Source: Verrucomicrobiota bacterium (GTDB lineage: Bacteria > Verrucomicrobiota > Verrucomicrobiia > Limisphaerales > UBA8199). From it: 64,000 nt of DNA. Shown here in pieces: positions 31,662 through 59,411 of the stretch (positions are counted from its first letter, which is position 1; every line of letters begins with the position of its first letter). Location of the stretch: NCBI GenBank assembly GCA_012517205.1, contig JAAYVL010000022.1, forward strand, positions 21,384 through 85,383. The letters run 5' to 3'. A program made the position numbers and the translations under genes. Below the pieces are notes generated by a model that worked only from the letters and a program-made list of their open reading frames with translations, did not search any database and had not been told where the DNA came from.

Positions 31662-31754
31662 GTGTACAAGGGGTGTACAAGGGATGCTCACCGGAAGTTC
31701 ATAGGATTTTAGCTGGTACACCCGATGGGCATCCCTTGTACACCCCTTGTACAC
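31662..31754 (-). repeat. 93-bp palindromic interspersed element, copy A
   Basis: 26-bp perfect inverted arms GTGTACAAGGGGTGTACAAGGGATGC (31662-31687) / GCATCCCTTGTACACCCCTTGTACAC (31729-31754). Its reverse complement matches 59121-59213 at 84/93 positions with no gaps. Confidence 0.95.
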
Positions 31755-31856: not shown

Positions 31857-31873
31857 TGTCCAAAAAATGGACA
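31857..31873 (-). repeat. 17-bp dyad TGTCCA-AAAAA-TGGACA accompanying copy A
   Basis: TGTCCAAAAAATGGACA; perfect 6-bp arms; related to 58997-59013 near copy B. Confidence 0.7.
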
Positions 31874-41479: not shown

Positions 41480-41556
41480 GCGTCCGTAGCTCAATTGGAT
41501 AGAGCTTCTGACTTCGGATCAGAAGGTTGCAGGTTCGAGTCCTGCCGGACGCGCCA
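41480..41556 (+). tRNA. tRNA-Arg, anticodon TCG, CCA encoded
   Basis: GCGTCCG-TA-GCTC-AATTGGATA-GAGC-T-TCTGA-CTTCGGA-TCAGA-AGGTT-GCAGG-TTCGAGT-CCTGC-CGGACGC-G-CCA: complete cloverleaf. Confidence 0.97.
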
Positions 41557-58996: not shown

Positions 58997-59013
58997 TGTC
59001 TAATTTTTGGACA
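58997..59013 (+). repeat. 17-bp dyad accompanying copy B
   Basis: TGTCTAATTTTTGGACA; reverse complement TGTCCAAAAATTAGACA resembles 31857-31873. Confidence 0.65.
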
Positions 59014-59120: not shown

Positions 59121-59213
59121 GTGTACAAGGGGTGTACAAGGGATGCTCATCGGGTGTACAAGCTAAAACTCTTTGGGCATCCGGTGAGCATCCCTTGTAC
59201 ACCCTTTGTACAC
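59121..59213 (+). repeat. 93-bp palindromic interspersed element, copy B
   Basis: GTGTACAAGGGGTGTACAAGGGATGCTCATCGGGTGTACAAGCTAAAACTCTTTGGGCATCCGGTGAGCATCCCTTGTACACCCTTTGTACAC; 84/93 identical to the reverse complement of 31662-31754. Confidence 0.95.
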
Positions 59214-59388: not shown

Positions 59389-59411
59389 AACTGTGCCAAA
59401 TTGGCACAGTT
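59389..59411. repeat. 23-bp perfect palindrome (11-bp arms around one A)
   Basis: AACTGTGCCAA-A-TTGGCACAGTT. Confidence 0.85.

Follow-up and report, generated by a model that had tools for sequence, protein, structure and literature searches.

Palindromic sites scattered around the chromosome and bound by one protein that assembles into nucleoprotein complexes are known in bacteria. Examples are the Noc binding sites (NBSs) of Bacillus subtilis, of which there are about 70 (PMC4331003), the SlmA sites and the matS sites of MatP. A second kind of dispersed palindrome is formed by REPINs and REP-BIME elements, which are inverted pairs of conserved arms with a diverged centre, are associated with RAYT (Y1) transposases, are reported to be randomly distributed in extragenic space (PMC3116915) and can receive insertion sequences in the palindrome (PMC1525189). 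MITEs of transposons with terminal inverted repeats (TIRs) are a third kind. Finally, transposition target immunity, as in Mu (MuB), creates a zone around an element in which further insertion is disfavoured; Mu cis-immunity is strongest around 5 kb and decays between 5 and 25 kb (PMC7350765).

Here, a 93-bp palindromic element of a Verrucomicrobiota bacterium (assembly GCA_012517205.1) was compared with these systems. The window, i.e., the whole stretch of DNA that was analysed, comprises 64,000 nucleotides of contig JAAYVL010000022.1 (positions 21,384 to 85,383). About 127 copies of the element were found in the genome. They lay between genes, were almost unchanged at their ends and, among the spacings that could be measured, were never closer together than about 9 kb, as if the chromosome were marked at intervals by a DNA-binding system that has not been described.

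Results

The two copies in the window

In the first-pass annotation of the window, two inverted 93-bp copies of a palindrome with conserved arms and a diverged centre had been noted in intergenic DNA. This observation was confirmed, although it proved to be far too small. Copy A and the reverse complement of copy B were both 93 bp long and aligned without gaps with 9 mismatches (positions 9, 35, 37, 38, 41, 44, 45, 54 and 67), one of which lay in the outer 26-bp arms. The 26-bp arms of copy A were perfect, and those of copy B had one mismatch. The arms exceeded chance, since 9 matches to GTGTACAAGGG at up to 1 mismatch were found in the window against 0.44 expected (0 of 100 shuffles). The DNA hairpin z-score was -8.7. 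The features of the two copies were as follows.

31662-31754 (+): copy A core, 93 bp, four 11-bp units, a 5-bp centre and four inverted 11-bp units
31662-31705 (+): copy A left arm, GTGTACAAGGG GTGTACAAGGG ATGCTCACCGG AAGTTCATAGG
31711-31754 (-): copy A right arm, inverted units
31857-31873 (no strand): copy A second palindrome (P2), TGTCCAAAAAATGGACA (consensus TGTCCAATTATTGGACA), 102 bp from the core
59121-59213 (-): copy B core, 93 bp, inverted with respect to copy A
59121-59164 (+): copy B left arm, four 11-bp units
59170-59213 (-): copy B right arm, inverted units
58997-59013 (no strand): copy B second palindrome (P2), TGTCTAATTTTTGGACA, 107 bp from the core
59392-59408 (no strand): copy B third palindrome (P3), TGTGCCAAATTGGCACA, 178 bp from the core on the other side

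Thus, the feature was larger than had been noted: each 93-bp core carried a second, 17-bp palindrome, and copy B carried a third. Copy A was located between divergent genes for a methylpurine-DNA glycosylase (PF02245) and a DNA topoisomerase (PF01131). Copy B was located between a macro-domain gene (PF01661) and a convergent gene without a Pfam match, so the earlier designation of the latter as a glycosidase was not confirmed. A tRNA gene at 41480-41553 was the only Rfam match in the window.

Copy number and distribution

To determine the copy number, the 25-nt arm was searched in the draft genome (a MAG of 3.60 Mb in 181 contigs, 93% complete; hereafter G000). At up to 3 mismatches, it occurred 127 times forward and 126 times reverse, i.e., 253 hits, whereas the reversed control gave 0. 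The possibility that only the two copies of the window existed, which the annotation had named as a refuting condition, was therefore rejected. The 40 best matches were 95-100% identical with no length change. From five sequence searches 103 cores were located, and six more were located later; about 18 of the estimated 127 copies were not located.

Of 293 genomes of the order, only five had the two-unit pattern. G000 had 401 hits, and the genomes G008, G012, G138 and G203 had 4, 1, 5 and 4 hits, respectively. A looser three-unit pattern searched over 87 genomes gave 419 hits in G000, 5 in G008 and single background hits in three others. The element was thus essentially confined to this genus. 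In G008, which belongs to another genus of the family, one-sided arrays of three to four of the same 11-bp units were found at four places inside a different repeated sequence. In the GTDB collection, the hits were Verrucomicrobia MAGs plus one 3-kb contig (JAKQJK010000358) in a Pseudomonadota MAG. Since this contig was 99.6% identical to a contig of G000, it was probably mis-binned. No matches were found in IMG/VR or in the phage and plasmid collections, which spoke against a phage, plasmid or viral origin.

Anatomy of the core

Each arm consisted of four 11-bp units of the form RTGNNCANSGG around a 5-bp centre. The core was 93 bp long in 95 copies and 104 bp long in 7 copies, and a relative in genome G010 was 82 bp long; therefore, the length moved by whole units. 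The outer two units kept 99.5% consensus identity in 49 copies of the AB class and 99.0% in 33 copies of the P2 class (both classes are described below), against about 66-81% for the adjacent flank of the AB units. Unit 3 kept 94%, and unit 4 plus the centre kept 77-91%. In one orthologous copy of a sister lineage (94.9% identity over 1461 bp, same place), no changes were found in the 44 outer-unit bases, whereas the flanks differed at about 6%. This was the only full orthologous pair, and its 44 outer bases would be expected to change only about 2.6 times at the flank rate.

To check whether base pairing was conserved, changes in one arm were compared with those in the other. In the variable unit 3, the arms matched less than when arms were exchanged between copies, and in the orthologous pair the inner changes were uncompensated. 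Only five outer flank positions showed a modest excess of matching (z about 2-3). The absence of compensatory changes, which had also been considered a possible refutation of the element, thus held for the variable inner units; this counts against conserved base pairing and not against the element.

Surroundings of the cores

Of 96 copies with flanks, 49 belonged to the AB class, 33 belonged to the P2 class and 14 belonged to neither. The AB class was a 764-bp non-coding unit. Its conservation of about 70% ended sharply about 259 bp to one side of the core and 412 bp to the other, at 19-bp inverted terminal repeats CTTAGCCGGAACGATTCAG, which were recognisable at 30 left and 17 right ends. The TIRs were decayed like the rest of the flank, and the left TIR shifted in 11-bp steps. 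No target duplication was found: among the 12 copies with both ends recognisable, no offset stood out after hundreds of combinations had been tested, although decay cannot be excluded. There were 51 TIR-like hits in the draft genome, most of them beside a core; the coreless ones that were read looked truncated or degenerate, and no transposase was noticed beside them, although without annotation of their genes. Judged by eye, part of the left flank of the AB unit seemed to be repeated, weakly, in the right flank (a direct repeat of about 110 bp), giving an LTR-like layout. Every scored match to the A/B arms bordered a core (40 of 63 candidates were scored). Therefore, no empty site was seen, and the view of the core as a small free insertion into a repeated target was rejected. 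The composite was also rejected as a protein-coding gene family because frames were not kept among copies.

The P2 class, to which both copies of the window belonged, carried the palindrome TGTCCAATTATTGGACA on one side, most often exactly 108 bp from the core; other distances were mainly 91, 102, 106-107 and 119 bp. Some copies had TGTGCCAATTTGGCACA, often about 178 bp away on the other side. P2 had 27 perfect sites in the genome and almost none in 19 relatives. Five P2 sites without a known core led to cores with variant units, which supports the pairing of P2 and core. Neighbouring P2-class units in one contig pointed both ways, which spoke against replication polarity.

The centre lay in both orientations relative to its surroundings (29 to 20 in the AB class and 22 to 11 in the P2 class), so it has been flipped repeatedly. 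Insertion sequences of at least three kinds had landed in cores, at five places in G000 and one in the sister lineage, mostly right after AAAATC/TTTT at the dyad centre; contigs often ended just beyond. The palindrome may therefore sometimes extrude, and insertion at a hairpin axis is known for REPs (PMC1525189), without this being what is conserved.

Spacing and position relative to genes

The 45 spacings within contigs ranged from 8,974 to 37,229 bp (median 17.5 kb, CV 0.34). When the same number of copies per contig was placed at random, about 18 spacings would fall below 8,974 bp, and the smallest would be about 280 bp (largest simulated minimum 3.8 kb); the conditional P was about 10^-11.7. 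An earlier set of cores gave P of about 10^-15. A minimum of 11.2 kb, obtained first, was lowered to 8,974 bp after variant cores had been found through the orphan P2 sites. The cut-off was read off the data and strongly decayed copies may have been missed, but neither is likely to account for an effect of this size. The rule also applied between the two classes (AB to P2 minimum 13.6 kb).

None of 96 copies checked lay inside a called gene; the gene calls came from a simple hexamer model trained in this work. The gaps that held the copies were long (median about 870 bp, against 110-420 bp for typical gaps), with about 330 bp to the nearest gene on either side. They were of all orientations (42 tandem, 26 divergent and 12 convergent), without a strong bias.

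Discussion

The interpretation given in the first-pass annotation, selection on a hairpin or cruciform or a REPIN/MITE-like mobile element, was partly supported. A genome-wide, intergenic family with conserved arms, a diverged centre and no transposase beside it was found, and one class of copies is carried in a MITE-like unit with TIRs. Selection on a hairpin or cruciform and membership in the REPINs were not supported. The 11-bp architecture as a genome-wide rule, the second palindrome and the spacing rule could not be seen in that annotation.

The reading tentatively preferred here, at slightly less than even confidence, is that the element is a selected, dispersed chromosomal site for a protein. 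What the analysis itself established is the set of about 127 copies, intergenic wherever checked, the 11-bp units in dyad arrangement with helical phasing, the 11-bp length steps, the second palindrome at fixed distance in one class, the near-invariant outer units inside strongly diverged flanks and the minimum distance of about 9 kb between copies of either class. Everything further, including protein binding itself, is inferred from sequence alone. In this view, an oligomerising DNA-binding protein would cover the phased TGNNCA units from both sides of the dyad and build one large nucleoprotein complex per site. Its host role would need sites that are spread along the chromosome and do not lie close together, so that it would serve chromosome organisation, anchoring or segregation in the manner of the sites of Noc, SlmA or MatP. 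About half of the sites would long ago have been carried to their places by the 764-bp MITE-like unit, whose ends have since decayed while the site was kept by selection.

The phased units, the 11-bp steps of core length and of the left TIR, and the P2 distances fit helical phasing and point to protein on double-stranded DNA, which fits better than conserved base pairing. Moreover, a dead MITE would lose its inside as fast as its ends, whereas here the ends and body of the AB unit have decayed alike while the core has not; what is kept is the core and not the ends for transposition. This favours a host function of the core. Against this reading, it stands without an identified binding protein, and the element is essentially absent from other genera of the family, which is unusual for a housekeeping site. 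There is no sign of an upper limit on the spacing, with gaps of up to 37 kb, as an organising role might predict, and the data come from one draft MAG whose 181 contigs are not placed relative to origin and terminus. Several cores are split at the centre by insertion sequences, so single sites are dispensable. A more far-reaching version, possible but less likely than not, is that the copies are the sites of an unknown chromosome-organising system, in which a protein polymerises on the phased dyad array, placed every 9-37 kb around the chromosome, and which a genus of Verrucomicrobia acquired by domesticating a MITE-like carrier.

The main rival, less likely but still possible, is a non-autonomous mobile element family, in which the core would be an internal binding array for the transposition machinery and the gap of 9-11 kb would be due to target immunity, as in Mu or Tn7-like elements, and not to host selection. 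The sharp ends and TIRs of the 49 AB copies, the lineage-specific distribution and the fact that spacings above the minimum look like a random tail are consistent with this. However, no transposase was noticed with these ends, no target duplication was detected, the TIRs decayed while the outer units of the core stayed 99% identical, and the P2 class has no such ends yet obeys the same spacing. No empty site was seen among the scored matches, and no relatives were found in the phage, plasmid or viral collections. The spacing rule would reflect either selection or an imprint of transposition immunity.

A REPIN-like hairpin mobilised by a RAYT and kept for its fold as single-stranded DNA or RNA is unlikely. 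The high copy number, intergenic position, conserved arms with a diverged centre, strong hairpin and insertion sequences at the dyad centre would agree with it, and two Y1_Tnp (RAYT-like) genes are present in the genome. However, these genes are flanked by palindromes of their own (CCCCTNACGGGG and CGCCCCAACGGGGCG) and not by this element, the changes are not compensatory, the copies are over-dispersed, and the surroundings of both classes share features far beyond the hairpin. Least likely are operators of a global regulator of the OmpR/PhoB type or transcription terminators: although the element is always intergenic in the copies checked and its phased 11-bp direct units resemble the layout bound by PhoP of Mycobacterium tuberculosis (7-bp direct repeats with a 4-bp spacer, PMC4832192), there is no preference for upstream or convergent positions, the nearest genes are about 330 bp away on either side, and gene regulation would not produce the spacing rule.

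Dispersed repeats in bacteria are normally explained as randomly scattered selfish DNA. A family whose members avoid each other over about 9 kb, and whose putative binding array is kept while its surroundings decay, makes a long-standing question testable, namely whether an inserted repeat family can become chromosome architecture or whether transposition immunity leaves a lasting imprint on a chromosome. Either answer would be informative.

Compared with the sites of Noc, SlmA and MatP, the element shares dispersed copies with sequence-specific conservation of the site only. It differs in being a 93-bp phased array rather than a short palindrome, in having more copies, a minimum spacing of about 9 kb and a second palindrome at fixed distance, in its carriage by a MITE-like unit and in having no known cognate protein. 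With REPINs and REP-BIME elements it shares the inverted pair of conserved arms, over 100 intergenic copies and insertion sequences in the palindrome, but it is not linked to either RAYT of the genome, its neighbours are excluded instead of random, its variation is non-compensatory, and its length changes in 11-bp unit steps. The AB class resembles MITEs in its non-coding unit, sharp ends, TIRs and about 50 copies, but no target duplication was detected, no partner transposase was noticed, the best conserved part is internal, and the P2 class lacks the TIRs. The exclusion zone is of the same order as that of Mu target immunity, although no transposase or MuB-like partner was shown to act here.
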